A DNA stretch of 34,874 nucleotides. Source: Ignavibacteria bacterium. GTDB lineage: Bacteria > Bacteroidota > Ignavibacteria > UBA10030 > SZUA-254. The position numbers and the translations under genes were made by a program. The stretch is taken from contig JACOSY010000001.1 in assembly GCA_016178595.1 (NCBI GenBank), forward strand, positions 1-34,874. Reading direction: 5' to 3'. Position 1 is the stretch's first letter, and each line of letters opens with the position of its first letter. Shown one piece after another: positions 16,984-33,086 of the stretch. The notes beneath the pieces were generated by a model. That model was not told the origin of the DNA. It did not search any database and worked only from the letters and a program-made list of their open reading frames with translations.

Positions 16984-19035
16984 TCACCAAATCTTCACTC
17001 TCACGTTATCCGCACGCCACATTGCATCACCTTCCTTGATTCCGAATGCCGCATAAAATTCCGGCATATCGGATAACGGTCCGATGACGCGGAACTTGAC
17101 GGGTGAATGCTCGTTGCTTCGAACCTGATTGGCAACAGCTTCTGGACGTTCGTTCACCATCCATGCCAATGCATAGCCGAGGAAGAAGCGTTGCGGGGGA
17201 CGTAAATCGCCAACGACTTCCTGGCTCTTGTACTGATTGGTTTTCTTGAACGCTTCATATCCCATCATGATGCCACCCAGGTCGGCGATATTTTCGCCTT
17301 GCGTCAATTCACCGTTGATGTGCAGGGTGTCGACGGCAACGTACTCGTTAAATTGTTTCACGATCATTTTTGTCTTGGCGTAAAACTTTGCGCTATCGTC
17401 AGGATCCCACCAGTTGTTCAGGTTGCCTTGTTCATCGTACTTGCTTCCCTGGTCGTCAAAGCCGTGAGTGATTTCATGTCCGAACGTCGAGCCGCCGATA
17501 ATGGAGTACAGCAGCGCATCGTCAGCCAGTTTCCGTTCATACCCCGGTACGATGATGTTGCAACCCGGCACTACGATTTCATTGTTTGAAGGATTGTAAT
17601 ATGCATTGTAGGTTTGAGGCTCCATGCCCCATTCCGTGCGATCAACCGGCTTCCCATATTTTGCAATCATGTAATCGAACCTCCACCGGTTGGCGCTCTT
17701 TCCGTTCTGCACATAGGAGGAACGATCGACGTGCATACTGCTCATGTCTTTCCACTTATCGGGATAGCCCACCTTCATGATAATCGTGCCGAGTTTCTTC
17801 AGCGCTTTCACCTTCGTGGCATCACTCATCCAATCCAATGTCTTAATCCGTTCGGCGTAAACATCTTTGATGGCATTCCCAATTTCCAGGAGTTTTTCTT
17901 TGGTTCCTTTGGGCAAGTAGTCGGCAACATACACCTGGCCGATCAATTCGCCGAGAGAGCCGTCGGTTTGTTCAACGACGCGCTTCCATCGAGGCTTTGG
18001 CTCCGGCACTCCGCGAAGTGTCGTGGAATAAAAGCTGAACGTTTCAAGAAATGTTTTATCATCGAGGTAGCGCGCAAGACCGCGCACGAGATGGTACTTG
18101 AGATAATTTTTCCAATCGTCAAGCGAAAATGTTTTGAGCTCATCGTTCAGTGCAGTCAAGAATTCAGGTTGACCGACGACCACCGTATCCGGATCGTGCA
18201 ATCCCACACCTTCAGCAAAGATACTCCAGTCGAGGTTGGGGGTGGATTCCGTCAATTGCTTGAACGAAATCTTATTGTAATTCTTCAGCGGGTCGCGCGT
18301 GTCTTCCCGTTTGCGGCACGATTGGGCGATCGCGGTTTCCAATTTCATCATACGCTCGGCAGCCTGCCCCGCGCCGGCATCATCGTATCCCATAATGACA
18401 AACATGCGATGAAGATGCTCGACAAATTTCTGGCGGATCATGACGGCATGTGCGTCGCCATCGAAATAATATCTGCGGTCAGGGAGACTCAATCCGCCCT
18501 GCGAAATAAAAATGGCATTCTTGCTGCTGATCTTATCATCCTGCCCGACGCCAAAGCCGAACAGAGGCGAACCGGAAACGCCATGAATATATGCCGCCGA
18601 GCGCGCGAGGCCTTTCAGATCCGTAATGCCGTCGATCATTGCGAGGTCGCTTTTGAGACCGGCGATGCCGTTGTTATTCAACGCAACGCTGTCCATGCCG
18701 GTAAAAAAGAAATCACCGATCTTTTGTTTGTTGCTTCCTTTTTCGGCGGTGGTTAATGACGAAGACGATTCGCAGATGTCGCGAACCTGCGCATTGATCG
18801 TATCCTGGATCAACTGCCAGAGTCCGTTACTTTGCTCGCTGGGAGGAATGGGATTGTCTTTGAACCACTTCCCATTGGCAAAGAGGAAAAAATCATCGCC
18901 GGGTTTCACAGTCGGATCGATGTGTGACACAAGAGGATCGAGCGCCTGCGTTGTGCCGCCGGTCTGACTGACTGCAACAGACGCAGAGAATGCCATGACG
19001 GCAACAAGCGCGAAGGAAAGGATGTGCGTTTTCAT
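16984..19035 (-). CDS. M13-family zinc metallopeptidase (neprilysin/PepO-like), secreted
   Basis: This 683-residue protein has a signal peptide (MKTHILSFALVAVMAFSASVAVSQ). The N-terminal M13 domain opens with the usual DPTVKPGDDFFLFANGKWF block. The catalytic domain has the zinc motif HEITH inside FGHEITHGFDDQG, the third-ligand motif ENIADLGG, and the substrate-binding region NAYYNPSNNEIVVP. The end (MWRADNVRVKIW) is complete. M13 enzymes cleave peptides outside the cytoplasm. I chose the ATG at 19035 because the signal peptide starts there. A TTG at 19104 with AAGGAG 11 bases upstream is an alternative but would add 23 polar residues before the signal. The 34-residue frame and Kazal-like gene follow on the same strand. 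Confidence 0.95.
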   Translation of the reverse strand: MKTHILSFALVAVMAFSASVAVSQTGGTTQALDPLVSHIDPTVKPGDDFFLFANGKWFKDNPIPPSEQSNGLWQLIQDTINAQVRDICESSSSLTTAEKGSNKQKIGDFFFTGMDSVALNNNGIAGLKSDLAMIDGITDLKGLARSAAYIHGVSGSPLFGFGVGQDDKISSKNAIFISQGGLSLPDRRYYFDGDAHAVMIRQKFVEHLHRMFVIMGYDDAGAGQAAERMMKLETAIAQSCRKREDTRDPLKNYNKISFKQLTESTPNLDWSIFAEGVGLHDPDTVVVGQPEFLTALNDELKTFSLDDWKNYLKYHLVRGLARYLDDKTFLETFSFYSTTLRGVPEPKPRWKRVVEQTDGSLGELIGQVYVADYLPKGTKEKLLEIGNAIKDVYAERIKTLDWMSDATKVKALKKLGTIIMKVGYPDKWKDMSSMHVDRSSYVQNGKSANRWRFDYMIAKYGKPVDRTEWGMEPQTYNAYYNPSNNEIVVPGCNIIVPGYERKLADDALLYSIIGGSTFGHEITHGFDDQGSKYDEQGNLNNWWDPDDSAKFYAKTKMIVKQFNEYVAVDTLHINGELTQGENIADLGGIMMGYEAFKKTNQYKSQEVVGDLRPPQRFFLGYALAWMVNERPEAVANQVRSNEHSPVKFRVIGPLSDMPEFYAAFGIKEGDAMWRADNVRVKIW

Positions 19036-19123
19036 GTCGGTCTTTCTAGTAGTTGTATGATATGAGAAAACGTTTTGCATTCGAGATAGTTTCAATATCG
19101 GCAATAAGTTTTTTGCTCCTTCC

Positions 19124-19151
19124 CCGGCGCTCTCTCACAAGGGAGCACCGG
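19124..19151. repeat. Inverted repeat upstream of M13 gene
   Basis: CCGGCGCTC (19124-19132) pairs with GAGCACCGG (19143-19151) with one mismatch and a 10-base loop. It lies in the divergent region between the M13 gene and the aromatic operon. On the minus strand an AAGGAG follows, so it could affect M13 leader RNA, but no T-run makes it a clear terminator. Confidence 0.45.
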
Positions 19152-19199
19152 CGAATATTTCACCCTCCGAGGAGAGACCGTTGGAGTGACTTAATCTGC

Positions 19200-19230
19200 A
19201 ACATACGCAAAATTCTTATCAGCTTCAACG
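19200..19230. repeat. Imperfect 31-bp repeat, copy upstream of M13 gene
   Basis: This is the partner of 16874-16904. The minus-strand frame reads NVEADKNFAYVAD then stop, but it lacks a start codon (TGA just upstream), so this copy looks like a remnant. Confidence 0.5.
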
Positions 19231-19273
19231 TTTGATCATAATACTCGTCAGCAAATTCGAGTACATTTTTCAC

Positions 19274-19302
19274 TTGACAATCACCGAGAATCTTCGTATC
19301 CT
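19274..19302 (+). promoter_or_regulatory. Promoter of the aromatic amino acid operon
   Basis: A perfect -35 TTGACA (19274-19279) is followed after 17 bp by TATCCT (19297-19302), which keeps the key T, A and final T of a -10. The predicted transcript start, near 19309, is only a few bases before the leader peptide ATG at 19313. A TATATC further right (19306-19311) would be badly spaced. Confidence 0.65.
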
Positions 19303-19312
19303 TGCTATATCT

Positions 19313-19408
19313 ATGAACGCAACCATCAAGCATACGGCATTAAGATTTTGGTACGCTTACTATTGGTGGAGTGTATCCTCCTCGCTTGGTGGTCAAAGAA
19401 CGGCGTAA
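19313..19408 (+). CDS. trpL: Leader peptide of aromatic operon attenuator
   Basis: A 31-codon frame runs from ATG 19313 to TAA 19406-19408. Residues 11-19 read RFWYAYYWW, so seven of the eight residues 12-19 are aromatic: one Phe, three Tyr and three Trp, including tandem Trp codons at 19364-19369. This is the hallmark of a transcription-attenuation leader, in which ribosome stalling at scarce-aminoacyl-tRNA codons decides the fold of the RNA downstream. It sits between the promoter and a Rho-independent terminator just before trpE. No SD precedes the ATG, and the predicted transcript start is almost at the ATG, so translation may be leaderless. TGGTGG at 19387-19392, within the 3' part of the frame, can pair with CCACCA in the terminator. 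Confidence 0.85.
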   Translation: MNATIKHTALRFWYAYYWWSVSSSLGGQRTA

Positions 19409-19427
19409 CACTGATGATGAGAATTTG

Positions 19428-19467
19428 AAAGCCCTTCTTGGTGCCACCAGGAAGGGTTTCGTGTTTT
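19428..19467 (+). terminator. Attenuator terminator before trpE
   Basis: CCCTTCTTGGT (19432-19442) pairs with ACCAGGAAGGG (19446-19456), an 11-bp stem with one G-U pair and a GCC loop. AAA/TTT can extend it past a bulged G. TTTCGTGTTTT follows. The competing structure uses TGGTGG at 19387-19392 with CCACCA at 19444-19449, which overlaps the terminator's loop and 3' arm. A ribosome at the leader stop would cover 19387-19392 and let the terminator form; a ribosome stalled on the aromatic codons would leave it free. Confidence 0.82.
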
Positions 19468-19478
19468 ATAGGGACGCT

Positions 19479-19502
19479 ATGCGACGTAAAGAGAAACAAT
19501 GA
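19479..19502 (+). other. Seven-codon frame overlapping the trpE start
   Basis: ATG at 19479 opens MRRKEKQ and ends at a TGA that overlaps the trpE ATG as ATGA, the same junction used between most genes of this operon. GGGAC lies just upstream. It might couple ribosomes into trpE, whose own SD is weak, but a chance frame is quite possible. Confidence 0.25.
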
Positions 19503-20962
19503 CATTCGAAGAATTCTTAACGCTGGCTGAATCGTACAACGTGATACCGGTGAGCGAAACGCTGCTCGCCGATACGCTCACGCCTGTTTCCTCCTATCTC
19601 CGTCTTCGCGAAGGAAGCTCAAGTTCTTTTCTCTTCGAGAGCGTCGAAGGTGGAGAGCGAGTTGCACGATACTCCTTCATCGGCCGCGATCCAATAACGA
19701 TGTTGAAGTGCCGGGATCGGATGACAACCATTACTGAGAACGGAAGGACAGAGACATCCGGTGAAAATTTCTTCGGCCTTGTCAATCGGCTCGTGAACAA
19801 ATACCGCCAGCCATCTCTTCCATCGCTGCCGCGGTTCACAGGAGGACTTGTCGGCTTCGTCGGCTATGACGCGATTCGTCACATTGAAAACATTCCGTGC
19901 AAGGTCAACGACCCGATCGGATTACACGATAGCATCCTCGGTCTCTTCACTTCCATTATTGCATTCGACCACCTTAAACATCAGGTAACGTTGATCGTTC
20001 ATGTCTTGCTGGATTCCAAGCAAGATCTTCGCCGGCAGTATGATCGAGCGATGCTCGACATCGTAAATCTCAAAGCGAAACTCTGGAATACACATCCCCC
20101 GGCCCAGGAATTTCATGCGTGCCCTGACCGACTCCAGCATGAAACTACGGCAGAGGAATTCAAAGCAAGCGTCGTCAAAGCGAAACAGTACATCCATGAT
20201 GGAGATATTTTCCAGGTCGTTCTCTCCCAACGTTTCTCGACTGAATTCCATGGAGACACTTTTAACGCATACCGCGCTTTACGTGTGATCAATCCTTCTC
20301 CCTACCTGTATTATCTTGATCTGGATGGATTCAAAGTGATCGGGTCGTCACCTGAAATACTTGTCCGGATGGAACATGGCGTCGGCGAAGTCTACCCGAT
20401 TGCAGGAACGCGGCCTCGCGGAAAAACCGATGACGAAGATATCGCGCTTGAACATGAGCTGCTTGCAGATGAAAAGGAACGGGCAGAGCACGTCATGCTC
20501 GTCGATCTTGGCCGCAACGACTTGGGACGAATCTGCGAAGCCGGAACCGTCACTGTCGATCAATTGATGGTGATCGTCCGATACTCACACGTCATGCACA
20601 TAGCGTCGCGCGTGATTGGAAAAGTCCAGCCTGATAGATCGTGTGTGGATGTGTTAAAGGCAACGTTCCCCGCAGGAACAGTTTCCGGTGCACCGAAGAT
20701 CCGCGCAATGGAAATCATTGACGAGTTAGAGGAAACGCGCAGGGGCATATACGCCGGCGGCGTCGGCTACTTTGATTTTTCCGGCAATATGGATATGTGC
20801 ATCGCTATCCGCACGATGTTCGCGACGAACGGACGGATTTATTTTCAAGCGGGCGCGGGTATCGTCGCAGACTCTGATCCCGAACGAGAGTACCAGGAAA
20901 CTATGAACAAGGCGCGGGCGCTTGTTGAAGCTCTCCGCATGGCGGAAGGAGTGATGCGATGA
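19499..20962 (+). CDS. trpE: Anthranilate synthase component I
   Basis: This 487-residue enzyme converts chorismate and ammonia to anthranilate. The N-terminal region has the tryptophan feedback site in its variant form SSFLFESVEGG (about 41-51, the LLES element). The C-terminal chorismate-binding domain has SPEILVRMEHG, YPIAGTRPRG, LGRNDLGR, GTVSGAPKIRAMEIIDELE and GAGIVADSDPEREYQET. Length and order are normal for TrpE, and the associated TrpG confirms it over a PabB or isochorismate synthase. It is the first structural gene after the attenuator, with only AAAGAG as a weak ribosome binding site. The end overlaps trpG by four bases. Confidence 0.97.
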   Translation: MTFEEFLTLAESYNVIPVSETLLADTLTPVSSYLRLREGSSSSFLFESVEGGERVARYSFIGRDPITMLKCRDRMTTITENGRTETSGENFFGLVNRLVNKYRQPSLPSLPRFTGGLVGFVGYDAIRHIENIPCKVNDPIGLHDSILGLFTSIIAFDHLKHQVTLIVHVLLDSKQDLRRQYDRAMLDIVNLKAKLWNTHPPAQEFHACPDRLQHETTAEEFKASVVKAKQYIHDGDIFQVVLSQRFSTEFHGDTFNAYRALRVINPSPYLYYLDLDGFKVIGSSPEILVRMEHGVGEVYPIAGTRPRGKTDDEDIALEHELLADEKERAEHVMLVDLGRNDLGRICEAGTVTVDQLMVIVRYSHVMHIASRVIGKVQPDRSCVDVLKATFPAGTVSGAPKIRAMEIIDELEETRRGIYAGGVGYFDFSGNMDMCIAIRTMFATNGRIYFQAGAGIVADSDPEREYQETMNKARALVEALRMAEGVMR

Positions 20963-21540
20963 TACTCGTCATCGATAATTACGATTCCTTCACGTACAAC
21001 CTCGTGCAGCTCGTTGCCCAGCATACAAAGGATTTTCGTGTTGTTCGAAACGATACACTGAGCGTTGCCGAAGTTGAAGCCATCAAACCAAATCGTATTC
21101 TCATTTCACCCGGGCCGGGCCGGCCTGAGAATGCAGGTATCTGCGTCGATCTCATTCGAACGCTCGGGATTTACATTCCGGTGCTCGGCGTCTGTCTTGG
21201 TCACCAGGCAATCGGATATGCGTTCGGTGGGAAGATTATTCACGCACCACAATTGATGCACGGAAAAACTTCCTACATCCAGCATGGAGGCGAGGGCATC
21301 TTCGAGAAACTTCCGAATCCATTCGAGGCAACCCGATACCATTCTCTGGTCATATCATCTGAAGGATTCCCGAAAGAGTTGAACATCACGGCGAGAACCG
21401 CCGACAACGTCATCATGGGAGTGCGTCACGCATCGTATCCGATAGAAGGAATTCAATTCCATCCGGAATCAGTTCTGACCAAACCCGGATATCAACTTAT
21501 TGCGAATTGGATTCACGCTTCCCACGAGGCACACGTATGA
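20959..21540 (+). CDS. trpG: Anthranilate synthase component II (glutamine amidotransferase)
   Basis: This is a 193-residue class I glutamine amidotransferase that supplies ammonia to TrpE. The catalytic triad is C79 (GVCLGHQAIG), H168 and E170 (IQFHPES). The N-terminus MILVIDNYDSFTYNLVQ and the oxyanion motif SPGPGRPENAG are typical. It is a separate protein, not fused to TrpD as in enterobacteria. It starts within the trpE stop (ATGA) and ends in an ATGA overlap with trpD, so the three should be made in linked amounts. Confidence 0.97.
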   Translation: MILVIDNYDSFTYNLVQLVAQHTKDFRVVRNDTLSVAEVEAIKPNRILISPGPGRPENAGICVDLIRTLGIYIPVLGVCLGHQAIGYAFGGKIIHAPQLMHGKTSYIQHGGEGIFEKLPNPFEATRYHSLVISSEGFPKELNITARTADNVIMGVRHASYPIEGIQFHPESVLTKPGYQLIANWIHASHEAHV

Positions 21541-22547
21541 AGCAGTTCATCCAGAAAATTGCGGAAGGACAGCACCTCACACGCGAAGAAGCGGCGGCAG
21601 CGATGCGAACGATCATGGAAGGAAATGCGACCGCGGCACAGATCGCGGCCCTTCTCATTGGCATGAAGCTGAAGGAGGAGCAACCGGATGAGCTTCTGGG
21701 ATTCGTGGAAGTCATGCGAGAGAAGGCTATACGGGTTTCTATCGATGATCCTGATGCTATTGATATGTGTGGAACGGGCGGCGATGGAGCCGGAACGTTT
21801 AACATCTCGACTGTTGCATCGTTCGTCGTTGCCGGTGCTGGCGTGACTGTGGCAAAGCATGGCAACCGGTCTATCTCCAGCAACTGCGGAAGCGCAGACG
21901 TGTTGAAGGCGCTTGGTGTGAATATTGAGCTACCGCCGGAGAAAGTCGAAGAGTGTATTAACGCCGTTGGCATTGGATTCCTCTTTGCTCCTCTGTTCCA
22001 TCCTGCGATGAAGTATGCGGCGAAACCGCGCTCGGAGCTTGGCGTCAAAACGTGCTTCAACATGCTCGGGCCGATGACCAATCCTGCAGGCGTACGTCGC
22101 CAACTGGTGGGTGCGTTCAGTCAGAAGGCCGCGGAGAAGATGGCTGCTGTTTTCGATCGATTGGGTGTCGACAAGGTTTTCGTCATCTGCTCGCATGATG
22201 GAATGGACGAAATCTCACTTCACGCGCGCACAACAGTTCATGATGTCGATGGCCATCGAAAACCTCAAACCTATGAACTTGATCCATCGTCGTTTCCGCT
22301 CCCAAGAGTCGAACGTTCCTCAATCCTTGGCGGCACAGCGGAGACAAATGCAAACCTCGCCATCGACGTACTCAAGGGCACGAAAGGCCCACATCGCGAT
22401 ATCGTGCTGGCAAATGCTTCTTCCGGACTTCTTGTTGCCGGAAAGGCACACGATATCAATGAGGGAATTCAGCTCGCCGCCGAGTCGATTGATTCCGGCA
22501 AGGCGCTCGATAAACTCAATAAGCTGAGGAATTTCACGAACGGATGA
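21537..22547 (+). CDS. trpD: Anthranilate phosphoribosyltransferase
   Basis: This 336-residue enzyme transfers phosphoribose from PRPP to anthranilate. The PRPP-binding CGTGGDGAGTFNIST motif and KHGNRSISSNCGSADVLKALG are present, as are the helical N-terminal domain (LTREEAAAAM) and FLFAPLFHPAMKYAAKPRSELG with TCFNMLGPMTNPA. The ATG at 21537 overlaps the trpG stop and gives the usual N-terminus MKQFIQKIAEG; an in-frame start 30 bases earlier would lie inside trpG. The 3' end overlaps trpC by four bases. Confidence 0.97.
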   Translation: MKQFIQKIAEGQHLTREEAAAAMRTIMEGNATAAQIAALLIGMKLKEEQPDELLGFVEVMREKAIRVSIDDPDAIDMCGTGGDGAGTFNISTVASFVVAGAGVTVAKHGNRSISSNCGSADVLKALGVNIELPPEKVEECINAVGIGFLFAPLFHPAMKYAAKPRSELGVKTCFNMLGPMTNPAGVRRQLVGAFSQKAAEKMAAVFDRLGVDKVFVICSHDGMDEISLHARTTVHDVDGHRKPQTYELDPSSFPLPRVERSSILGGTAETNANLAIDVLKGTKGPHRDIVLANASSGLLVAGKAHDINEGIQLAAESIDSGKALDKLNKLRNFTNG

Positions 22548-23344
22548 ACATCCTCCAGCAAATCGTCGAACATAAGCGCGAGGAGATCGCTGCACGCAAA
22601 CAGCACATAACGATCTCGGACTTGGCAGGCTCGGAATATTTTGAAAGAGAAACGTTTTCACTTCGCCGCGCACTCAACGATCAACCGGTCTTTGGAATCA
22701 TTGCGGAAATCAAGCGTGCATCCCCTTCAGGCGGATCGCTCAATAATAATGTCGATCCCAGGAACCTTGCGCGTGAATACGAAGAGCACGGCGCTGCAGG
22801 AATCTCCGTCTTGACCGACGAGCGGTTCTTTTCAGGTTCACTCGACGATGTGAAGAAAGCCCGCAGCGCTGTCAGCTTGCCCATCCTGCGGAAAGATTTC
22901 ATATTAGATGAATACCAACTTTTCGAAGCGAAGTCCGCCGGCGCAGACGCTGTACTTCTCATTTCAGCGATACTTGAGAAATCACAGTTACGAGATCTTC
23001 ATGCAGCGGCGAAAGAATTGGGGCTCGAAGCACTCGTGGAATTGTATGAAACGGATGAGATCGATAAGCTTGACTTCGATCGGATGAAACTCATCGGCGT
23101 CAACAATCGCGACCTGCGAACATTCACCATCGACGTGAACCATTCGATTGAACTGGCGAAGCTGATGCCGTCGGACATTACCTTCGTGAGTGAAAGCGGT
23201 ATTTATAGTTCGGACGATCTCAAGAAACTCTCGGACCACGGGATCCGTGCAGCGCTCATCGGCGAATATTTTATGAAATCCGATGGGCCGGGCAAAGTAC
23301 TTGCAGAGTTGTTGGAAGGATTGAAGCGTGAAACCACGAGTTAA
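22544..23344 (+). CDS. trpC: Indole-3-glycerol phosphate synthase
   Basis: This 266-residue TIM-barrel enzyme closes the indole ring from carboxyphenylaminodeoxyribulose phosphate. Family motifs are clear: IIAEIKRASPSGG, GISVLTDERFFSGSLDDV, LPILRKDFILDEYQ, GADAVLLISAIL, LVELYETDE, GVNNRDLRTF and FVSESGIYS. It is separate from TrpF, unlike the TrpC-F fusion of E. coli. The start overlaps trpD by four bases, and the trpF start lies 17 bases before its stop. Confidence 0.97.
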   Translation: MNILQQIVEHKREEIAARKQHITISDLAGSEYFERETFSLRRALNDQPVFGIIAEIKRASPSGGSLNNNVDPRNLAREYEEHGAAGISVLTDERFFSGSLDDVKKARSAVSLPILRKDFILDEYQLFEAKSAGADAVLLISAILEKSQLRDLHAAAKELGLEALVELYETDEIDKLDFDRMKLIGVNNRDLRTFTIDVNHSIELAKLMPSDITFVSESGIYSSDDLKKLSDHGIRAALIGEYFMKSDGPGKVLAELLEGLKRETTS

Positions 23345-23948
23345 AATTTGCGGCATCACAAATAGCGAAGATGCGGCGCTTGCTGTTCGAGCAGGAGCCG
23401 ATGCTCTTGGCTTCATCTTCTATGAGAAAAGTCCGCGATACATCACGCCACAAGTAGCAGCATCCATTATTCAGCACCTTCCGCCATTCATAACGCCTGT
23501 GGGTGTCTTCGTCAATGCGGCCCGCGAATTCATCGAGGAAGTGATTCGAACGACCACCATCCGTGCGATCCAGCTCAGCGGTGAAGAAACACCCGACGAT
23601 TGCACCGGCTATTCGGTCAGCGTCATAAAATCCTTCCGGATACGGAAATGGGAAGAGGTTGAGAGCGTGAAACGTTTCACCATTGCCGCTGCCATGCTCG
23701 ATGGCGCGAAGGATGGTCAGTATGGCGGTTCCGGCGACGTTGCAGACTTTACTATTGGAAAAGAAATTCGGAAATTCCATCCATTGATACTTGCAGGCGG
23801 ATTGAATCCGGATAATGTCATAGAAGCCGTTCGCGCAGTTCAACCGTATGCCATTGATGTAAACAGTGGAGTCGAGAGTACACCGGGAACAAAAGATCCG
23901 GCAAAACTACAAATGCTTTTTGAACGCTTGCGATCCTCATTTCCTTAA
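23328..23948 (+). CDS. trpF: Phosphoribosylanthranilate isomerase
   Basis: This 206-residue TIM-barrel enzyme performs the Amadori rearrangement before the TrpC step. It starts at GTG 23328 (VKPRVKICGI), with GGAAGGA a few bases upstream inside trpC. Catalytic Cys7 in KICGIT and the Asp in YAIDVNSGVES are present, along with ALGFIFYEKSPRYI and LAGGLNPDNV. The 17-bp overlap with trpC suggests translational coupling. A 41-bp gap follows, one of only three junctions in this operon that do not overlap. Confidence 0.96.
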   Translation: MKPRVKICGITNSEDAALAVRAGADALGFIFYEKSPRYITPQVAASIIQHLPPFITPVGVFVNAAREFIEEVIRTTTIRAIQLSGEETPDDCTGYSVSVIKSFRIRKWEEVESVKRFTIAAAMLDGAKDGQYGGSGDVADFTIGKEIRKFHPLILAGGLNPDNVIEAVRAVQPYAIDVNSGVESTPGTKDPAKLQMLFERLRSSFP

Positions 23949-23989
23949 AAATTATAGAGAACAGACGAACATAATCTGAAGAATATCAC

Positions 23990-25036
23990 ATGCTGATTGT
24001 TATGAAGCTCGATGCCCCACGCGCGGATATCGAGAGAGTAAAAGAAAAGATTCGCTCGCTGGGTTATACTCCACACGAAATTCCCGGCGACCACCGGACG
24101 GCGATCGGAATTACCGGAAACAAGAGCAGACCCGACGCGGAACAATTCCTCACGCTCGCGAGCGTGCTCGAAGCGATTCCCGTCACCAAGCCCTTCAAGC
24201 TCGTCAGTCGGGACGCAAAGCCGGAGGATTCGCTCGTTCATGTCGGTGAAGAAGTTGTAGGCGGCAAAGAACTGACGATGATCGCCGGCCCGTGTTCGGT
24301 CGAAGGACGACAGCAGATCATCGACATCGCTTTCACGCTGAAGGAGATGGGTGTTCGATTCCTCCGGGGCGGTGCATATAAACCCCGGACTTCCCCCTAT
24401 TCCTTCCAGGGATACAAGACGGAAGCTCTCCACTATTTGAAAGATGCGAGGGATGCGACAGGATTGAAGATCGTTACAGAGGTCAAAGATACGGAAACGC
24501 TGCCGCTTGTCGCCGAAGTTGCCGATGTCCTGCAGGTCGGCGCGCGCAACATGCAGAACTATTCTTTGCTCGAAGCTATCGGCGATCTCCGGAAGCCTGT
24601 GCTGCTCAAGCGCGGGCTTTCCGCAACGATCGAAGAATTATTGATGGCGGCAGAATACATTTTACATGGCGGAAACTACAATGTTATTTTATGCGAGCGA
24701 GGAATACGAACCTTTGAAACGGCGACTCGAAACACACTCGACCTGAATGCCATTCCGATCATCAAGAAGTTGTCTCATCTCCCCATCATTGTCGATCCAA
24801 GTCACGGCATCGGCGTGTGGGATGGAGTGGCTTCGATGGCATTGGCTGCAATAGCTGCCGGCGCTGATGGATTGATTATTGAGGTACATCCCGATCCTAC
24901 GATGGCGCTCTCAGACGGTTACCAGTCGTTGAAGGTCAATAAGTTCAAGCAACTATTGGAAAAGCTTGAGCAGCTTGCGCCAATCATGGATCGAACATTC
25001 ACAAGAACGGCCATCAACGCCGAGGCAGTCGAATGA
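23990..25036 (+). CDS. aroF: DAHP synthase, type I-beta with N-terminal regulatory domain
   Basis: The 348-residue protein catalyses the first step of the shikimate pathway, condensing PEP and erythrose 4-phosphate. Residues 1-72 form a ferredoxin-like (ACT-like) domain ([20 protein letters not shown] ... [11 protein letters not shown]) like that of the Thermotoga maritima enzyme, where it confers Tyr/Phe inhibition. The barrel has [59 protein letters not shown] and IIEVHPDP. The enzyme is thus probably feedback-controlled in addition to operon attenuation. It sits between trpF and trpB, interrupting the trp block, and overlaps trpB by four bases. Confidence 0.95.
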
Positions 25037-26256
25037 CGCTCAATGAGTATCACCAGCCCGATGATCTCGGGCATTTCGGAAAGTTCGGCGGGCGCTTCGT
25101 CCCTGAAACGCTGATCACCGCACTCCAGGATCTTGAACACGCGTATGCCGTAACAAGGCGCGATCCGGTTTTTCAAAAAGAGTTGCAATCGCTCCTTCGA
25201 GATTACGTCGGGCGACCGACTCCACTCTACTTTGCGCGTCAACTGACGAAGAAGTACGGCAAAGGGAAAATTTATCTGAAGCGTGAAGACCTATGCCACA
25301 CCGGCGCTCACAAGATCAACAATACTGTCGGACAAATCCTGCTCGCGAAGTACCTCGGCAAGCCTCGCATCATCGCGGAGACCGGCGCCGGTCAGCATGG
25401 CGTTGCCACGGCAACTGTTGCGACGATGATGGGCCTCGAATGTGCCGTCTACATGGGTACGGAGGATATGGCTCGCCAGGAGATCAATGTCACGCGGATG
25501 AAATTACTCGGCGCAGAAGTTATTCCCGTCTCATCAGGCACCCGCACGTTGAAAGACGCGACAAACGAAGCCCTGCGTGACTGGGTCACCAATGTCCGCA
25601 ATACGTTTTATGTCATCGGCTCGGTCGTCGGTCCTCATCCGTACCCGATGATCGTCCGCGACTTTCAGTCGGTCATTGGCCGGGAAACGAAAGAACAAAT
25701 GCACGCACTTCACGGTCGATTGCCGGACTACCTCGTTGCGTGTGTGGGCGGCGGCAGCAACTCGTTGGGCTTGTTCTACGATTTCCTCAGCGATCACGAT
25801 GTAAAGATGATCGGCGTCGAGGCGGCGGGATTGGGAGTTGAGTCCGGTCATCATGCCGCGACACTTACCGCAGGCACACCCGGAGTTCTTCATGGCTCGT
25901 ACAGTTACGTATTACAGGATGCCGACGGTCAGATCAAATCGGCTCATTCCATCTCCGCCGGCTTGGATTACCCGGGCGTCGGTCCTGAGCACAGCCATTT
26001 GAAAGATACGGGACGAGTAGCGTATGTTTCCGTTACCGATGATGAAGCCCTCGCCGCCGGACTTGAATTAACGCGACTCGAAGGAATCCTTCCGGCACTT
26101 GAATCATCTCATGCACTTGCCTATCTCGATACGTTGTCGCCGCAAACATCAGTTGACGACCTCATTGTCGTCAATCTCTCCGGCCGAGGTGAGAAAGATC
26201 TCCCAACGATTACGCGAGCCTTCGTGAAGGGTGAGGCGGAGAAGGCGAGCTCATGA
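25033..26256 (+). CDS. trpB: Tryptophan synthase beta chain
   Basis: This 407-residue PLP enzyme joins indole and serine. The PLP lysine is K94 in GAHKINN, and the phosphate-binding loop is [47 protein letters not shown] and [18 protein letters not shown] mark it as canonical TrpB1 rather than the long TrpB2. It overlaps aroF upstream and trpA downstream, each by ATGA. Confidence 0.98.
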
Positions 26257-27050
26257 ATAGATTGAGCAAACGACTAGAATCGCTTCGCCGTGACAATCGA
26301 AAGGCACTATCACTTTTTGTTACGGCAGGATTCCCTTCTGCCGATAGCACGGTTCCTCTCGTGATTCAACTCGCCGATGCCGGTGCCGATCTCATTGAGC
26401 TCGGCATCCCATTCTCCGATCCCATCGCGGATGGCCCGACAATCCAGAACAGCTCCGAGGTTGCTCTTCGCAATGGGATGAGTCTTCCAAAAACATTGGA
26501 GATAGCAAGAGAGATTCGAAAACAAAGCGATGTGCCGCTTGTTCTTATGGGATATGCAAATCCAATTTATGCGTACGGTCTTATGAAGTTTCTCGGCTCC
26601 TGCAAAGAAACCGGCATCGATGGAACAATCATCCCGGATATGCCGTTGGAGGAGAGCGAAGAATATAGAACGATGGCTCAGCAATGCGATATTGCCACAA
26701 TCTTCCTTGCCGCGCCGACGACACCACCGGAGCGGCTCGTTCAGCTCGATCAAGCATCATCGGGATTTCTGTACTGTGTCTCAATCACCGGAGTCACCGG
26801 CGAGCGACAAGCACTCGCAGCACAAGCGGAAAGTTTTCTCAGGCGAGCACGAGCATCCGTAAAAAAGAATCCTCTCCTCGTCGGCTTCGGCATTTCGACG
26901 CCTGAGGATGCACGACGGGTTGCCGCATTAAGCGATGGCATCATTGTCGGCAGCGCGCTTGTGAAAATCTTGCAGAATGCGAATGCTCACCACGCCATCG
27001 ATCATGCCGTGGAATATGCCCGATCACTCCGCGAGGCACTCGACTCATAA
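26253..27050 (+). CDS. trpA: Tryptophan synthase alpha chain
   Basis: This 265-residue TIM-barrel subunit releases indole from indole-3-glycerol phosphate and passes it to TrpB. Catalytic E49 and D60 lie in [53 protein letters not shown] and [11 protein letters not shown] are also family blocks. It starts inside the trpB stop. An 18-bp gap separates it from aroB, where the operon changes from tryptophan to common-pathway genes. Confidence 0.97.
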
Positions 27051-27068
27051 ATCTTTTCAAGCCACTCC

Positions 27069-28142
27069 ATGCGAATTCATCTCAAACGAATCATCGACAA
27101 CTCGTACGATATCCGGTTCGTCAACAATATTTCAGAAGCGGGAGCTGATATCCGCTCGACCTACCCCGATGCCCGCGTCTTCATCATCACGGATGTGAAC
27201 GTCGGGAAACACTACGCAGGTCCCTTTGCTCGTTGCGTCTCCGGAAGAACAGCTCCGGCATACGTGCTACGGATTCCCGCCGGCGAGGCGAGCAAGAACC
27301 GCACGATGAAAGAGTCCCTTGAGGATCAACTCATCTCGCTCGGAGCAACACGCAACTCGGTCATCGTCGCTCTTGGCGGAGGAATGATCGGTGACCTTGC
27401 AGGATTTGTTGCCGCGACACTTCATCGTGGTGTATCGTTTATCCAGATTCCGACGTCCCTCCTCGCACAAGTCGATAGCAGTATCGGAGGTAAAGTCGCT
27501 GTCGATCATCCGCAAGGGAAAAACTTGATCGGCGCTTTCTTCCAGCCAAAGAAAGTCTATATCGATGTTTCGACGTTGAAAACACTTCCTGACGGTGAAT
27601 TCCGTAACGGAATGGCAGAGGTCATCAAGTATGGCGCAATCCTCGACGGCAAGCTTTTCACATTTCTGGAGAAGAACCGCGCGGCGATTCTGCGGAAGAA
27701 TCCGAACATCATGCACGCCATCATCGAACGCTGCTGCGAGCTCAAGCGAGCCGTTGTCGAAAAAGATGAGCGAGAAGTCGACTACCGACGCATTCTGAAT
27801 TTCGGCCACACGATTGGGCATGCCGTCGAGCAGGTATCGAACTATCGCATTGCACATGGTAAGGCAGTTGCGATTGGCATGGCTGCAGAAGCAAAGGTAT
27901 CGACTGCGTTGGGAATTCTTTCCAGCAACGACGCTGCTCGACTCGAAGATGCGCTCAAGGCTTTTGGACTAGCGACATCCTTTCCAGCGAAAATGAGAAC
28001 AACTGCAATCTTCGACATGACGTTGCGGGATAAGAAGACACAACAGGGGAAAGTCCATTATACTCTTCTTGAAAAGATCGGCAAAGCACGAGTCGGGGTT
28101 CCGATGAGCCGTGTTCGGGCACAGGAGTTGTTTGAGCGATGA
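27069..28142 (+). CDS. aroB: 3-Dehydroquinate synthase
   Basis: This 357-residue NAD- and metal-dependent enzyme converts DAHP to 3-dehydroquinate. The NAD site is in ALGGGMIGDLAGFVAATLHRG; substrate and metal residues are seen in PTSLLAQVDSSIGGK, KNLIGAFFQP, GMAEVIKYG and NFGHTIGHAVE. The ATG at 27069 gives the expected N-terminus. The stop overlaps the aroDE fusion gene by four bases. Confidence 0.97.
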   Translation: MRIHLKRIIDNSYDIRFVNNISEAGADIRSTYPDARVFIITDVNVGKHYAGPFARCVSGRTAPAYVLRIPAGEASKNRTMKESLEDQLISLGATRNSVIVALGGGMIGDLAGFVAATLHRGVSFIQIPTSLLAQVDSSIGGKVAVDHPQGKNLIGAFFQPKKVYIDVSTLKTLPDGEFRNGMAEVIKYGAILDGKLFTFLEKNRAAILRKNPNIMHAIIERCCELKRAVVEKDEREVDYRRILNFGHTIGHAVEQVSNYRIAHGKAVAIGMAAEAKVSTALGILSSNDAARLEDALKAFGLATSFPAKMRTTAIFDMTLRDKKTQQGKVHYTLLEKIGKARVGVPMSRVRAQELFER

Positions 28143-29560
28143 GAGTGTGTATCTCCATTGCACCTTCTTCCACAAAGGACGCAGTCGCAAAACTCAAACA
28201 AGCAGCGCGACAGACCGATCTCGTCGAACTACGGATCGATGGAGCCAATGATCTTGACATCGAACGATTGTTGCGGCGACCGAGGCCCGAAGTAATCGTG
28301 ACCAACCGTCGGCGTTCGGAAGGCGGACGTTTTGACGGCAATGGAAAGGATCAGCTTGAAATTCTTACGACTGCATTGCGGCTGGGCGCAGAGTACGTTG
28401 ACGTCGAGGCAAGTTGGGGTACACCCGTTGTTCGTCAGCTTGTCAAAAATAAAGGCCGAGGTCGGGTAATCGTTTCCTACCATAACTTTGAAAACACTCC
28501 GAGGAATATTCACTCCATCTACACGAAGCTGAGCAAGCATGGTGCGGACATCATCAAAATCGCTACAACAGCAAGCGATATTAACGATAACCGCCTTCTC
28601 TTCGATATTCTTCAACGTTCTCGTGCGGAAAAGCAAAAGACTGCGGCTTTTTGTATGGCCGAACGAGGACAAATCAGCAGGATTCTCGGCGGCATCTTTG
28701 GCTGTCATCTAATGTACGCTGCGTTCACATCCACCGAATGCACTGCGCCGGGCCAGTTGACCGCAGCGGACTTGAAAAAGATTTACCAAGTTCATACTTT
28801 AGATCGACGGACACGGATATTCGGTCTCGTCGGAAATCCAGTCTCCCACAGTCGCGGGATTCATTATCACAATGCATTCTTTCACCGGAGATCGATCAAC
28901 GCCGTCTATGTCAATTTCTTGGTAGATGATGTTCGGAAATTCTTCACGGCATTCCGCGCTACTCTCTCGGGCGCGAGTGTCACCATGCCGTTCAAGCAAG
29001 ATGTTATCCCGCTGCTTGATCGTCTTGAAGACGACGCCCGTCGTATTTCCTCCGTCAATACCATCATCATGAGAAGAGGAAAAGCGATTGGTTATAACAC
29101 CGACCTACCGGCCATTATTTCCGTGATAAGGAAAAGAACATCCCTCCGAGGAAAACGAGCGCTCGTTCTTGGAACTGGAGCAACGGCAAAAACAATGCTC
29201 TACGCGATGGCTGCGAACGGTGCACACGTTACTGTAGCCGGGCGGTCCCCGCGGAAAGCAAAGGCACTCGCTTCCGAATTCAATTGCGAGTGGGCATTGC
29301 TCAATGATCTTTCCTCGCTGACGACAGATATCGTTATGAATGCAACTCCGGTTGGGATGTCATCGATACCCGACGGGGAGATTGTTCCCAGAAAAATTCT
29401 TCGTAAAGGAACGATTGTTTTCGATGCGGTCTATTCACCGCCCACAACTCCTCTTCTCCGATCGGCACGGTTGGCAGGTTGCACAACGATTTCAGGCATG
29501 GAACTATTTGAAGAACAAGCCAATTTCCAATCTCGTCTCTTTCAGGAATCAATTCGATGA
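28139..29560 (+). CDS. aroDE: Bifunctional 3-dehydroquinate dehydratase (type I) / shikimate dehydrogenase
   Basis: The protein has 473 residues with two enzymes. Residues 1-218 are a type I dehydratase: ELRID near 30, catalytic H115 in VSYHNFENTP, Schiff-base K140 in DIIKIATTA. Residues about 225-473 are shikimate dehydrogenase: FGLVGNPVSHSRGIHYHNAFF (substrate loop), catalytic K286 in SVTMPFKQDV, D322 in GYNTDLPA, and NADP-binding VLGTGATAKTM. It therefore carries out steps three and four of the pathway. The same order is known in plants and chlamydiae; most bacteria use two proteins. The usual S-x-S in the SDH substrate loop reads SHSRGIHYHN, with Gly-Ile instead of Ser-Pro, a mild deviation. 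It overlaps both neighbours by ATGA. Confidence 0.95.
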   Translation: MRVCISIAPSSTKDAVAKLKQAARQTDLVELRIDGANDLDIERLLRRPRPEVIVTNRRRSEGGRFDGNGKDQLEILTTALRLGAEYVDVEASWGTPVVRQLVKNKGRGRVIVSYHNFENTPRNIHSIYTKLSKHGADIIKIATTASDINDNRLLFDILQRSRAEKQKTAAFCMAERGQISRILGGIFGCHLMYAAFTSTECTAPGQLTAADLKKIYQVHTLDRRTRIFGLVGNPVSHSRGIHYHNAFFHRRSINAVYVNFLVDDVRKFFTAFRATLSGASVTMPFKQDVIPLLDRLEDDARRISSVNTIIMRRGKAIGYNTDLPAIISVIRKRTSLRGKRALVLGTGATAKTMLYAMAANGAHVTVAGRSPRKAKALASEFNCEWALLNDLSSLTTDIVMNATPVGMSSIPDGEIVPRKILRKGTIVFDAVYSPPTTPLLRSARLAGCTTISGMELFEEQANFQSRLFQESIR

Positions 29561-30831
29561 CACCTGATACGGTTCGAATGATTCGACCCACTACTCGTAT
29601 CAATGCCAGCGTGGAAGTGCCGCCATCGAAGAGCTACACGAACCGTGCGCTCATTGTGTCAGCTCTTGCCGATGGTGCATCGACTCTCATCAATCCATCA
29701 CCGAGCGAAGACTCGGAGTACTTAATCGCAGCGCTCAAGGAATTTGGCGTTGGCGTCAAAAAAGAAAACCACCGCGTTCACATCCAGGGAACGGGAGGTT
29801 CCCTCACGGTTCCATCGAAGGAAATTTTCATTGGCAATGCCGGAACTGCTATGCGCTTTCTCTCAACCTTTGCGTGCCTCGCACAGGGTGATACGACGAT
29901 TACAGGAGATGAGCGCATGCAGCTGCGGCCCATCAACGACCTTCTCGACGCCCTGCGGATGTCCGGCATACGGTGCAGCAGCAAGAACGGTTGCCCACCC
30001 GTAACAATTCATGGCGGAACGTTCAATGGGAATCGGATCGATGTTCACTCAACGATCAGCAGTCAGTTCCTCTCATCGTTATTATTGTCAGCACCGTACA
30101 CGAAGAGACCGGCCTCCATCCATGTGAAGGGACAGCTCAGCTCGCTTCCCTACATCAACATTTCGCTGCACGTCATGCGTTCCTTCGGGGCGGAGATCGA
30201 TTTCAGCGACTTCTCCATATTTCATGTGAGCAACAAGGAACGATATATCGGCCGTGAGTTTCACATCGAATCGGATGCCTCTGCAGCGACATATTTTCTC
30301 GCCGCTGCGGCAATCACCGGCGGCCGCATCGTCGTCAAGAAACTCTCGCCGGAATCGCTTCAAGGAGATGTGAAATTTATTGACGTGCTTTCCGATATGG
30401 GCTGTATCGTGACAAAGCACGAAGAGAGCCTTGAAGTGCGCGGAGGAAAACTCCGCGGTATCGATGTCGACATGAACCATTTACCCGACTGCGTCCCGAC
30501 ACTTGCTGTCGTTGCGGCTTTCGCAGACGGGCCCACGACAATCTCGAATATCGGACAACTGCAGTTTAAGGAATCGAATCGGCTCCATGCAATCGCAACT
30601 GAGCTGATGAGGATTGGGGCCAAGGTGGAAGTACTTGACGATGGGCTGGTCATTATTCCACAGCCGCTGCATGGAGCTACAATTGAAACGTACAACGACC
30701 ACCGTATTGCGATGAGCTTTGCTATCGCCGGCTTGCGCGTCAATGCAATCGGAATTAAGAATCCAACGTGTGTCTCGAAATCCTTTCCAAATTTCTGGGA
30801 AGAATTCAAAAAGATTGAAGCAAAGGAGTAA
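29557..30831 (+). CDS. aroA: 5-Enolpyruvylshikimate-3-phosphate synthase
   Basis: This 424-residue enzyme adds enolpyruvate from PEP to shikimate 3-phosphate. It has [19 protein letters not shown], the PEP-site [34 protein letters not shown], the catalytic Asp in [16 protein letters not shown], and [17 protein letters not shown]. The start at 29557 overlaps the previous stop; ATG at 29578 ([14 protein letters not shown]) is an alternative. Its substrate needs shikimate kinase, which is not encoded in this window. The aroC fusion gene follows after two bases. Confidence 0.96.
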
Positions 30832-30833
30832 TC

Positions 30834-32174
30834 ATGGCTGGAAATGCGCTCGGAAGTTTCTTTCGAATCACGACCTTTGGCGAAAGCCACGGTAAAGCTG
30901 TGGGCGTTCTGATCGATGGTGTCAAACCGAACATGATCGTTTCCGAAGCGGAGATTCAGAAGGAACTCGACCGGCGGCGTCCCGGACAAAGCAGCGTCAC
31001 GACATCGAGAAATGAAGCGGATCAAGTACACATTCTCAGCGGTGTCTTCGAAGGGAAAACGCTTGGCACACCACTCTGTCTTCTTATTTGGAATAAGGAT
31101 CAGAATTCGAAAGCGTATGATGCGATCAAAGACCTCTTTCGCCCCGGCCATGCCGGCTATACCTACTTATCGAAGTACGGAATCCAAGATTACCGCGGCG
31201 GCGGACGATCATCCGCGCGGGAGACCGCGGGACGTGTTGCCGCAGGTGCACTGGCAAAGCACATTCTTGCACGGCGGGGAATTCGCATCATCGCTTACAC
31301 GAAGGAGGTCGGCGGGATCGTTGCAAAAAAAATCGACTATGATCAGATCGAAAAAAATCCTGTCCGCTGTCCGGATCGTGAAGCTGCCGATCGGATGGCA
31401 AAAAAAATCCTCAGGGTCAAGAACGAAGGAGATTCGCTCGGCGGCATTGTTGAGGCGATCATTCAGAATTGTCCGTCAGGACTAGGCGATCCCGTCTTCG
31501 ATAAGCTCGAAGCCGATCTTGCCAAGGCGCTGATGTCTATTCCGGCGATCAAGGGATTTGAGATTGGATCCGGCTTCGCTGCAGCCCGCATGCGCGGAAG
31601 TGAGCACAACGACGAGTTTATAAAAGACAGAAAGACGGGAAAGATCCATACGAAGACGAACTATGCAGGCGGTATTCTTGGAGGAATTTCCAACGGTGAA
31701 GACATCGTCGTCCGCGTTGTTGTCAAGCCGCCTTCTTCTATCCCGAAAGCACAACACACCGTCGATGTCAAAGGACGAGCCCGCACCATCAAAGTTGAAG
31801 GTCGTCACGATCCCTGTCTTTGCCCGCGCGCAGTGCCGGTTGTGGAATCAATGATTGCACTCGTCATAGCCGATCATCTGATGCGACAGCAAATGTTGAA
31901 GAACAATGGCAACCCGCTCTCTCGACTCCGAAAAGAAATCGACTTCACTGACGATATGATTATGATGCTCCTCAGCGAACGACAGGAACTTGTCCGTGAA
32001 GTCGGACGACGAAAGAAAAAACATCGCCTTCCGATCCCGAACCGAAAACGCGAAGAGGATATCCTCACCAAACGACTTGCCCTTGCCGGGGAAGCCAATC
32101 TCGATGATAAGCTCGTGGAAGTCATTTACCGGGCAATCTTTGACAATGCTCGCCGTATTCAGAAAGTTGTATGA
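30834..32174 (+). CDS. aroC: Chorismate synthase fused to AroQ chorismate mutase
   Basis: Residues 1-357 are chorismate synthase: [62 protein letters not shown], and [16 protein letters not shown]. About 90 further residues (about 358-446) match an AroQ chorismate mutase: [30 protein letters not shown], then basic [17 protein letters not shown], and an end [11 protein letters not shown]365, R383, a Lys of 394-397, E408 and Q443 fall where AroQ active-site residues are expected. The protein should make chorismate and convert part of it to prephenate. That fits tyrA next door, whose ATG lies inside this stop. Mutase fusions to DAHP synthase, PheA and TyrA are familiar; one to AroC is not a form I know well. 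Confidence 0.92.
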
Positions 32175-32911
32175 GTAAAGAAATCGCCCTCATCGGATAC
32201 GGCAGGTTTGGTCGTCTCGCTGCTGCACATCTCCGCAAAGATTTCCAGGTGTGCGTTGTAGAACCTCGTAAATCCGTACAACTTGCTCGTGGCATGCGCC
32301 GTGTGTCTCTTGAGGAAGCGGCATCCAAGCCGGTTGTTCTTCTTTCCGTTCCAATCAATCGACTTTGTGATGTCCTTACCACAATTGCCCCCAAGCTTCG
32401 AATCGGGGCGCTCGTTATCGATGTCTGCTCGGTAAAAGAACAGCCGGTTCGCTGGATGAAATCTCTTCTACCCAAAGATGTTTTAATTCTGGGAACTCAT
32501 CCTCTTTTCGGACCAGATAGCGCAGCAAAAAGTCTGATGGGACATACAATTGTTCTCTGCCCCGTGCGAATTCGGAAAAGACAACTTCAACGCCTCTCGA
32601 CTTATCTTCGAGCACGCGGATTGAATGTACAACTATTGACGCCTCTTCGTCACGACAAACTTATGGCATCGACACTTTTCCTGACACAATTCGTTGGCCA
32701 CGGCCTTCGTAAACTTTCGCTGCCAAATCCTACATCTTCAACTCACAATTTCAGATCTCTTCATCACATTGCAACAATCACGGGAAACGATACGATGGAA
32801 CTGTTCCGTGACATGTTCGAATACAACCGCTTTGCCAAACGTCTCCCTGAAGAGCTTCTCCGATCGTTCAGCGAACTTCATAAAACGCTGAAGTCACCTC
32901 GCAGTTATTAA
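32171..32911 (+). CDS. tyrA: Prephenate (or arogenate) dehydrogenase
   Basis: This 246-residue protein has an N-terminal NAD(P) fold ([17 protein letters not shown]) and the TyrA substrate block [27 protein letters not shown], then a helical dimer domain ([15 protein letters not shown] ... [14 protein letters not shown]). It oxidatively decarboxylates prephenate or arogenate toward tyrosine. The THPLFGPDS motif resembles plant-type arogenate dehydrogenases, so the substrate is not settled by sequence. It has no ACT domain, so control probably lies at DAHP synthase and the attenuator. It is the last gene of the operon; no good terminator hairpin is visible in the 88 bp that follow. Confidence 0.92.
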
Positions 32912-32999
32912 CACAAATATCCCGTCATGACTGCATAATTTTCCACAATAATGCTTCATTTCCATAAATAAGGGTTGAGTAAAATCCCATCTTCCTCTG

Positions 33000-33028
33000 T
33001 TGACATTCTAACGAAAAAATACGATAAT
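33000..33028 (+). promoter_or_regulatory. Consensus sigma-70 promoter before secreted-protein gene
   Basis: TTGACA (33000-33005) and GATAAT (33023-33028) are separated by exactly 17 bp. The predicted start near 33035 leaves about a 50-base leader, with AAAGGA seven bases before the ATG at 33087. Confidence 0.75.
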
Positions 33029-33086
33029 AGATCATACACAATCATAGAACAGGGAGGGCAATTTTCGTCCTATTGAAAGGATAATT

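Follow-up and report, generated by a model that had tools for sequence, protein, structure and literature searches.

A predicted ribosome-mediated attenuator with a mixed aromatic codon run in front of a 13-gene trp/aro/tyrA operon of an Ignavibacteria bacterium

The operon and its leader region

The window, by which we mean the whole stretch of 34,874 nucleotides analysed, carries 13 consecutive genes for chorismate, tryptophan and tyrosine synthesis. All 13 genes of the original prediction could be named downstream of the leader from NCBIfam and Pfam matches, as follows.

19499..20962, + strand: trpE (profile matches)
20959..21540, + strand: trpG (profile match)
21507..22547, + strand: trpD (profile match)
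22544..23344, + strand: trpC (profile match)
23328..23948, + strand: trpF (profile match)
23990..25036, + strand: aroF-type DAHP synthase (profile matches)
25033..26256, + strand: presumed trpB (match to the PLP-dependent family PALP of Pfam only)
26253..27050, + strand: trpA (profile match)
27069..28142, + strand: aroB (profile match)
28139..29560, + strand: aroDE, 3-dehydroquinate dehydratase fused to shikimate dehydrogenase (profile matches)
29557..30831, + strand: aroA (profile match)
30834..32174, + strand: aroC fused to chorismate mutase (PF01264 and PF01817)
32171..32911, + strand: tyrA, prephenate dehydrogenase (profile matches)

The biggest gap among these genes is 41 nt. We take the frame at 25033..26256 to be trpB from its length and its place before trpA; none of the 13 genes was named as a shikimate kinase. 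The operon comprises the pathway to chorismate and the Trp and Tyr branches, without the Phe-specific dehydratase. The single match to pheA (prephenate dehydratase) in the genome lies on another contig, outside the operon, and its ATG stands 3 nt behind the stop of the upstream frame, so that there is no room for a leader between the two. A scan of 19380-33200 found 11 promoter-like sites vs. 11.5 expected, and an internal promoter is unsupported. In the same stretch 26 terminator-like sites were counted vs. 15.1 expected, nearly all of them inside genes. The aroC-chorismate mutase fusion has a near-full-length match in all five other f1 operons that reach that far and in both f3 operons.

A DUF420 gene (16091-16513) is located upstream of the trp operon, and a DUF420-like frame lies within about 500 nt of trpE in the relatives G002, G006, G009, and G012. 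In the window the DUF420 gene and the operon are separated by a reverse-strand ORF of 706 aa (16984-19104), which is presumably an M13-type peptidase. On the other side of the operon (33000-34601), a promoter match TTGACA-17-GATAAT (11/12) precedes a 504-aa ORF that has no Pfam match at 1e-5.

The region in front of trpE contains the following elements.

19274..19302, + strand: sigma-70-type promoter TTGACA-17-TATCCT (sequence scan and family conservation)
19313..19408, + strand: leader peptide ORF of 31 aa, MNATIKHTALRFWYAYYWWSVSSSLGGQRTA, with no Shine-Dalgarno-like tetramer
19322..19331, + strand: region 1 (protector), ACCATCAAGC, predicted to pair with 19384-19393 (own-versus-swapped test)
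19346..19369, + strand: stall run F-W-Y-A-Y-Y-W-W (window sequence and family comparison)
19384..19393, + strand: region 2a, 5' strand of the antiterminator, of which 19385-19393 would pair with 19443-19451
19396..19404, + strand: region 2b, of which 19396-19400 would pair with 19435-19439 and 19402-19404 with 19431-19433 (fold)
19406..19408, + strand: leader stop codon TAA, at a position where a terminating ribosome could mask region 2 (folding)
19429..19459, + strand: Rho-independent terminator hairpin of 14 pairs; an imperfect T tract extends behind it to about 19469

The leader is a short ORF (ATG at 19313, TAA at 19406-19408) with a run of codons for products of the operon (trp, tyrA) upstream of the first gene. 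The run extends from F12 (19346) to W19 (19367-19369) and holds three Trp, three Tyr, and one Phe codon; with its one codon, Phe is the weakest of the three aromatic signals. The seven aromatic residues in eight positions claimed beforehand are exact to the base, and so are the end of the run at 19369 and the motifs TGGTGG (19387-19392) and CCACCA (19444-19449). At least seven aromatic residues in nine occurred in 26 of 20000 Markov-1 samples of the + strand of 19100-19498, and the six frames of the whole window contain two such 9-mers. The intrinsic terminator predicted between the leader ORF and the first gene as an 11-bp hairpin is present; the 11 bp are the core of the 14 pairs. A search of the window against Rfam, which covers families for the Trp leader, the T-box and others, returned no matches at gathering scores.

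The leader in the family and the class

Among the 15 genomes of the window's family, 14 gave some TrpE match. Ten of these are TrpE (the window's own and those of nine relatives, which are 50-83% identical to it over the matched part), and four are merely weak partial matches. In one member (G014) the upstream sequence ends at the contig end, and it is not among the nine leaders with readable upstream DNA. Every one of the nine leaders has two or more Trp and one or more Tyr in a 9-residue run. The runs are RFWYAYYWW, NWYWFWYRWY, TWYWSYWY, FWYWYWF, YSWCWSYWY, YRRYWWW, RYWYWF, RYWFWW, and PYSYPGAWW: the order of residues varies and the class of residue is kept. This comparison of upstream regions, proposed along with the original prediction, found the Trp/Tyr run and the terminator conserved; Phe is not in all of the runs.

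The search was extended to the class, in which 147 of 391 genomes matched TrpE at E<=1e-100; from this and previous searches 122 trpE loci were read, two of them without upstream sequence. The genomes are mostly draft assemblies, and family and class labels are those of the genome set used. Leader start codons were set by rule and three were corrected by eye. A leader with a Trp run followed by a terminator was found at 89 of the 122 loci. At 26 loci only trpEG was seen and no leader plus terminator was detected by rule, and when the trpEG-only and upstream-less loci are set aside, the count is 89 of 94. The absence from the 26 trpEG-only loci indicates that attenuation goes with the long form of the operon. 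The trpEG-only loci without a leader (f4, f6, f8, f12, f20) include L151, L152, L159-L163, L172, L173, and L179-L183, and further such loci are L185-L191, L193, and L250-L253. Four genomes (G060, G070, G302, G367) have a longer trp operon with no leader by rule; in the tyrA-containing operon of G016 (f3), inspection by eye showed a leader that had escaped the rule, with one residue each of Trp, Tyr, and Phe. Outside the class, 79 of 80 trpE loci from named lineages were scanned. Five leaders were convincing (L033, L046, L056, L063, L077), each with a Trp run and no Tyr or Phe in it, and two further rows look spurious.

Many f24, f14, and f27 leaders start with T-Y-Y or T-Y-N-F (among them L168, L169, L225, L228, L233, L234, and L237), at a distance from the Trp run of several to about 15 codons. 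A ribosome stalled at this motif would sit far upstream of the antiterminator.

The -10 box of the window's promoter is 10 nt from the leader ATG. Since the promoter and hairpin scan of the window region found no more than was found in shuffled sequences, the significance of both elements rests on conservation. In eight aligned family members TTGAC is kept in seven and TATC in eight. Across the class, a promoter scoring at least 9/12 was present within 75 nt upstream of 82 of the 89 leaders vs. 15% of shuffles, and in the control interval 175-250 nt upstream in the same genomes it was present in 10 of 86. With the gap from the -10 box to the ATG restricted to 4-15 nt, the counts were 68 of 89 leaders vs. 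4% of shuffles. A Shine-Dalgarno-like tetramer in the usual place was found at none of the 89 leaders vs. 41 of 89 trpE starts; shuffles carry one in just 2.9%, and its absence from the leaders is in itself not unusual for their base composition. Because the conserved promoter would place the start of transcription next to the ATG, the leader mRNA is probably leaderless or nearly so, with a start within a few bases of the ATG.

Alternative RNA pairings and folding with a masked ribosome

The minimum-energy fold of 19383-19454 is a 17-pair antiterminator (-23.2 kcal/mol). The partner of region 2a (19443-19451) is the terminator loop and upper 3' arm, and the partners of region 2b lie in the terminator 5' arm. 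The pairing TGGTGG:CCACCA put forward earlier is thus part of a longer helix. It was evaluated with an alignment-free own-versus-swapped test, in which the partner of each leader was scored against the partners of all other genomes, and p=5e-5 is the floor of this test. The match of region 2 to its own loop and 3' arm averaged 16.97 vs. 12.85 for swapped partners (sd 0.31, p=5e-5, n=89). It was also detected in f1+f2+f3+f9 alone (p=0.0076, n=17), and in f5+f6 (n=12 loci) it was not significant (p=0.11). Individually, only 36 of 89 antiterminators reached p<0.05. The protector helix 1:2 behaved in the same test as a matched pair over the 89 leaders (16.30 own vs. 12.98 swapped, p=5e-5), with p=0.025 in f1 alone and p=0.083 in f27 alone (n=4). 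At the level of sequence, this comparison establishes the parts, their conservation, and their matched pairing.

An antiterminator that captures only the terminator 5' arm was also considered and was rejected: it gave p=0.036 overall and 0.72 in f1+f2+f3+f9, compared with 5e-5 and 0.0076 for the loop plus 3' arm. A small but significant match to the 5' arm was seen in f14+f24+f27 (9.33 vs. 8.72, p=5e-5), and the window fold also has an inner helix on that arm. The C-terminal codons GG.R.A are common to six of nine family leaders, and GAAnGG is invariant in an alignment of eight of them (alignment A1; region 2b); the shared codons are explained by the RNA pairing there.

The best antiterminator helix begins at a median of 20 nt past the last Trp codon. 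By the usual figures for the ribosome footprint, this start lies just beyond the leading edge of a ribosome stalled at the last Trp.

In a codon scan of the window, a ribosome was masked at successive codons; the RNA upstream of it was masked as well, and the transcript ended at 19451 or 19455. Ribosomes at codons 12, 13, 14, 16, 17, 18, and 19 (Phe, Trp, Tyr, Tyr, Tyr, Trp, Trp) left ∼17 antiterminator pairs, and ribosomes at codons 25, 28, 30 or the stop favoured the terminator. The folding check suggested with the original prediction thus came out as expected: a ribosome on the run frees the antiterminator and one at the stop codon does not, which also supports the claim that the stop is placed for a terminating ribosome to mask region 2. 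A stall at codon 11 (Arg) permits the antiterminator as well, and the run is therefore marked by its codons and not by a special fold. The last codon of the run is close to the limit, because a stall at codon 22 already loses the antiterminator with RNA to 19455.

The 89 leaders were also folded, counting any partner of the loop and 3' arm between ribosome and hairpin as upstream pairing, in place of pairing with the terminator 5' arm. With RNA 8 nt short of the hairpin end, upstream pairing was favoured in 79 of 89 with the ribosome at the last Trp vs. 15 of 89 with the ribosome at the stop; 4 nt short of the end, the figures were 29 vs. 1. Once the hairpin was complete, upstream pairing was ahead in 3 of 89 (last Trp) and in 0 of 89 (stop). 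In the window the complete terminator is more stable at every codon tried, including with a stalled ribosome, so the switch must be kinetic. As upstream pairing is lost while the hairpin completes, the decision would have to fall before emergence of the 3' arm is complete, and the computed exclusive antiterminator, freed on the run and masked at the stop, exists only before hairpin completion.

Exceptions were seen at both lengths. Upstream pairing was not favoured by a stalled ribosome in two of nine family members (G002, G012) at 8 nt short and in four of nine at 4 nt short; f2, f3, and f9 loci had it in four of eight at 8 nt and in none at 4 nt. When the upstream RNA of the window was left free with RNA to 19455, a ribosome at codons 16-19 did not keep helix 1:2 from re-forming around it, and the terminator won. 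Without a ribosome, the antiterminator and not 1:2 prevailed with RNA to 19451, and from 19455 on 1:2 and the terminator prevailed.

Mechanism, sensed amino acids, and known systems

Very probably, the locus attenuates transcription by way of a ribosome that translates a mixed aromatic codon run. The attenuator mechanism proposed earlier is supported by the 89 leaders at 122 loci, the matched pairing, and the masking folds, and it is the comparison with the 122 trpE loci of the same class that makes attenuation clearly the best reading. In the scheme that we propose, RNA polymerase would start within a few bases upstream of the leader ATG, and translation of the leader would begin at once without a Shine-Dalgarno site. 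When charged tRNA-Trp and tRNA-Tyr (perhaps also tRNA-Phe) are plentiful, the ribosome would reach the stop codon and cover region 2, and the terminator would form. A stall in the run would leave region 2 just past the leading edge of the ribosome and free to pair; it could then capture the emerging 5' arm, loop, and upper 3' arm of the terminator, and polymerase would continue into the 13 genes. With no ribosome, region 1 can hold region 2 and termination would be the default. Helix 1:2 is assumed to be blocked during a stall by the ribosome between its strands or by a second one starting behind. An initiating ribosome could do so because region 1 is 10-19 nt from the ATG, inside its footprint. 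The start site, the kinetics, and the starvation response in this scheme are what we infer from the parts and the folds.

The case for Trp as a regulatory codon is strong, Tyr is a likely one, and Phe is a possible signal in this genome; the likely signals of the attenuator are Trp and Tyr. Operon content was compared with run content after 14 leaders on cut operons were left out. The mean number per 9-residue run was 3.44 Trp, 0.22 Tyr, and 0.28 Phe in 18 trp-only operons. In 48 trp+aroF operons, six of which are cut soon after trpA and may have tyrA further on, it was 3.29, 0.50, and 1.10, respectively. The nine tyrA-containing operons (10 were read, and G016 was left out) averaged 2.56 Trp, 2.22 Tyr, and 0.78 Phe. 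This trend would fit a run tuned to the products of the operon, with exceptions. G048 (f5) has YFTYAGYWW but no tyrA, and five f5/f6 aroF loci (G018, G032, G054, G057, G074) have an uninterrupted WWW or WWWW. The f9 leaders have Tyr and no tyrA in the fetched stretches, four of five of which end shortly after trpA or earlier, and the trp-only G293 and G344 carry Tyr and Phe.

At least two Tyr occur in the run in seven of nine tyrA-containing vs. five of 66 other operons (Fisher 1.3e-5, ignoring descent). On the TrpE tree the tyrA-containing loci stand in one part, save the long-branched G006, and there are just two supported independent contrasts for tyrA vs. at least two Tyr (1.1 the same way, 0.3 the other way). 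We therefore rejected the Fisher association as independent evidence, and the link between tyrA and Tyr is not independently replicated. The presence of aroF vs. Phe/Tyr gave nothing significant in eight contrasts on the same tree: 2.5 the same way and 0.0 the other way for at least two Tyr+Phe in the run, 2.1 and 2.9 for at least one, 2.0 and 1.4 for Phe in the run, and 2.4 and 1.1 for at least three Tyr+Phe in the whole leader.

A broader reading would make this a class-wide, near-leaderless attenuator whose run is rewritten by the gene content of the operon: Trp alone for trp genes, Phe/Tyr added for the first common aromatic enzyme, and interleaved Trp/Tyr for tyrA. In the window it would work like an OR gate, opened when any one of the end products of the 13-gene supraoperon runs short. 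We put this forward tentatively, as an idea that somewhat more probably fails than holds.

The original prediction had the leader reading Phe, Tyr, and Trp together, so that one switch would respond whenever any aromatic amino acid is short. Its Trp and Tyr part is supported, with both residues in nine of nine family runs. Stalls at Phe12, Trp, and Tyr also fold alike (upstream masked, hairpin incomplete), which fits such a switch and puts the Phe codon at a structurally permissive position; the comparison backs Trp and Tyr rather than all three. Phe is in five of nine family runs, and codons for all three are therefore not conserved together. Phe is present in 29 of 48 trp+aroF vs. 5 of 18 trp-only leaders, and the aroC-chorismate mutase in the operon should make prephenate, the precursor of Phe. 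Four of the nine family runs lack Phe, however, pheA is outside the operon, and the tree contrasts of Phe with aroF went 2.0 one way and 1.4 the other out of eight. Moreover, sensitivity is expected from theory to fall as the fraction of regulatory codons gets smaller (PMC1183508), which would make a single Phe codon a weak sensor. By the same argument, a mixed run may trade sharpness for breadth. We consider sensing of all three somewhat less likely than not.

It is unlikely that the leader is a plain tryptophan attenuator, in which only Trp is sensed and the Tyr and Phe codons are neutral filler, slow or aromatic residues being sufficient. In its favour, Trp is what these leaders have in common throughout the class, WWW stands alone in several trp-only and trp+aroF operons, and the tyrA-Tyr link has no real replication in its two supported contrasts. 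The AroR leader of Corynebacterium has Phe-Tyr-Phe and, according to the accessible text, answers to Phe and not to Tyr (PMC11802643), and codon presence is therefore no proof of response. Against this, Tyr reaches a mean of 2.22 in the tyrA-containing operons vs. 0.50 and 0.22 in the other two groups, it is kept in nine of nine family runs despite the changing order of residues, and Tyr stalls are as effective as Trp stalls in folding with the upstream RNA masked.

Action in trans of the terminated leader RNA or peptide, beside or instead of attenuation, seems very improbable. In Sinorhizobium, rnTrpL and peTrpL act in this way. As with rnTrpL (PMC7298713), the 5' end of the terminated RNA would lie at or close to the ATG, but the peptide sequence is poorly conserved. 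Least probable of all is arrest of the ribosome by the nascent aromatic peptide in response to a free amino acid, for which TnaC with Trp is a known case in the accessible part of the source (PMC8429421): the nine family leaders keep no fixed residue beyond the aromatic class in or beside the run, and their C-terminal GG.R.A codons (six of nine) are accounted for by RNA pairing.

The proposed Trp and Tyr attenuator resembles trpL of E. coli in its leader ORF with Trp codons, protector, antiterminator, terminator, and a stop codon that lets the finishing ribosome mask region 2. The run is mixed here and Trp only in E. coli. E. coli trpL has a strong ribosome site, a longer 5' UTR, and a region 1 that overlaps the Trp codons, whereas region 1 of the window leader lies in codons 4-7. 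The main antiterminator helix of the window would capture the loop of the terminator together with its 3' arm, and a second helix would form on the 5' arm. A single attenuator reads several amino acids of one operon in the ilvGMEDA and thrABC leaders of enteric bacteria; their mixed runs are branched-chain or Thr/Ile, and that of the window is aromatic. The earlier statement that classic leaders read one amino acid was too strong, given these ilv and thr leaders and the two amino acids in AroR (PMC11802643, accessible text).

The C. glutamicum AroR leader is similar in having a mixed aromatic run before a DAHP synthase operon; it differs in that no Trp is mentioned in its run in the part of the paper available and in its response to Phe, not Tyr (PMC11802643). 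A prediction table that refers to Camakaris 1980 lists an 'attenuator sensing tyr-tRNA' for aroF-tyrA in E. coli and Shewanella (PMC2659441). Tyr supply is proposed there to control a DAHP synthase/tyrA operon by attenuation; this operon has no trp genes, and the accessible part gives no leader peptide. Putative attenuators have also been predicted before tyrA supraoperons, which are large clusters, the one of Desulfovibrio vulgaris running into the trp operon; leader peptides and sensed amino acids are not given in the available portion of that study (PMC1173090). In Sinorhizobium meliloti the trpL transcript begins at the leader ATG and the leader peptide is leaderless, as may be the case here; its peptide has 14 aa, and roles in trans are reported in the accessible text (PMC7298713). 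Our literature search, for which subscription papers were mostly beyond reach, found no Trp+Tyr(+Phe) leader before a trp/aro/tyrA operon, and we do not claim its absence from print.

According to the available part of a 2010 paper, leader-peptide attenuation was known from Proteobacteria and Actinobacteria and was added for Firmicutes (PMC2965389). The present finding would extend it to this class, in a form whose protector lies close to the start and that lacks a Shine-Dalgarno site. A comparative study by Vitreschak and colleagues in 2004 reportedly predicted attenuators also in Bacteroidetes/Chlorobi. While attenuators of this type are old, it is unusual for a mixed codon run to be matched with a mixed operon. 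The Trp-only, Trp+Phe/Tyr, and Trp+Tyr leaders on one RNA frame form a natural series on the gain and loss of attenuator specificity, which also lets one ask how a single switch balances several end products.
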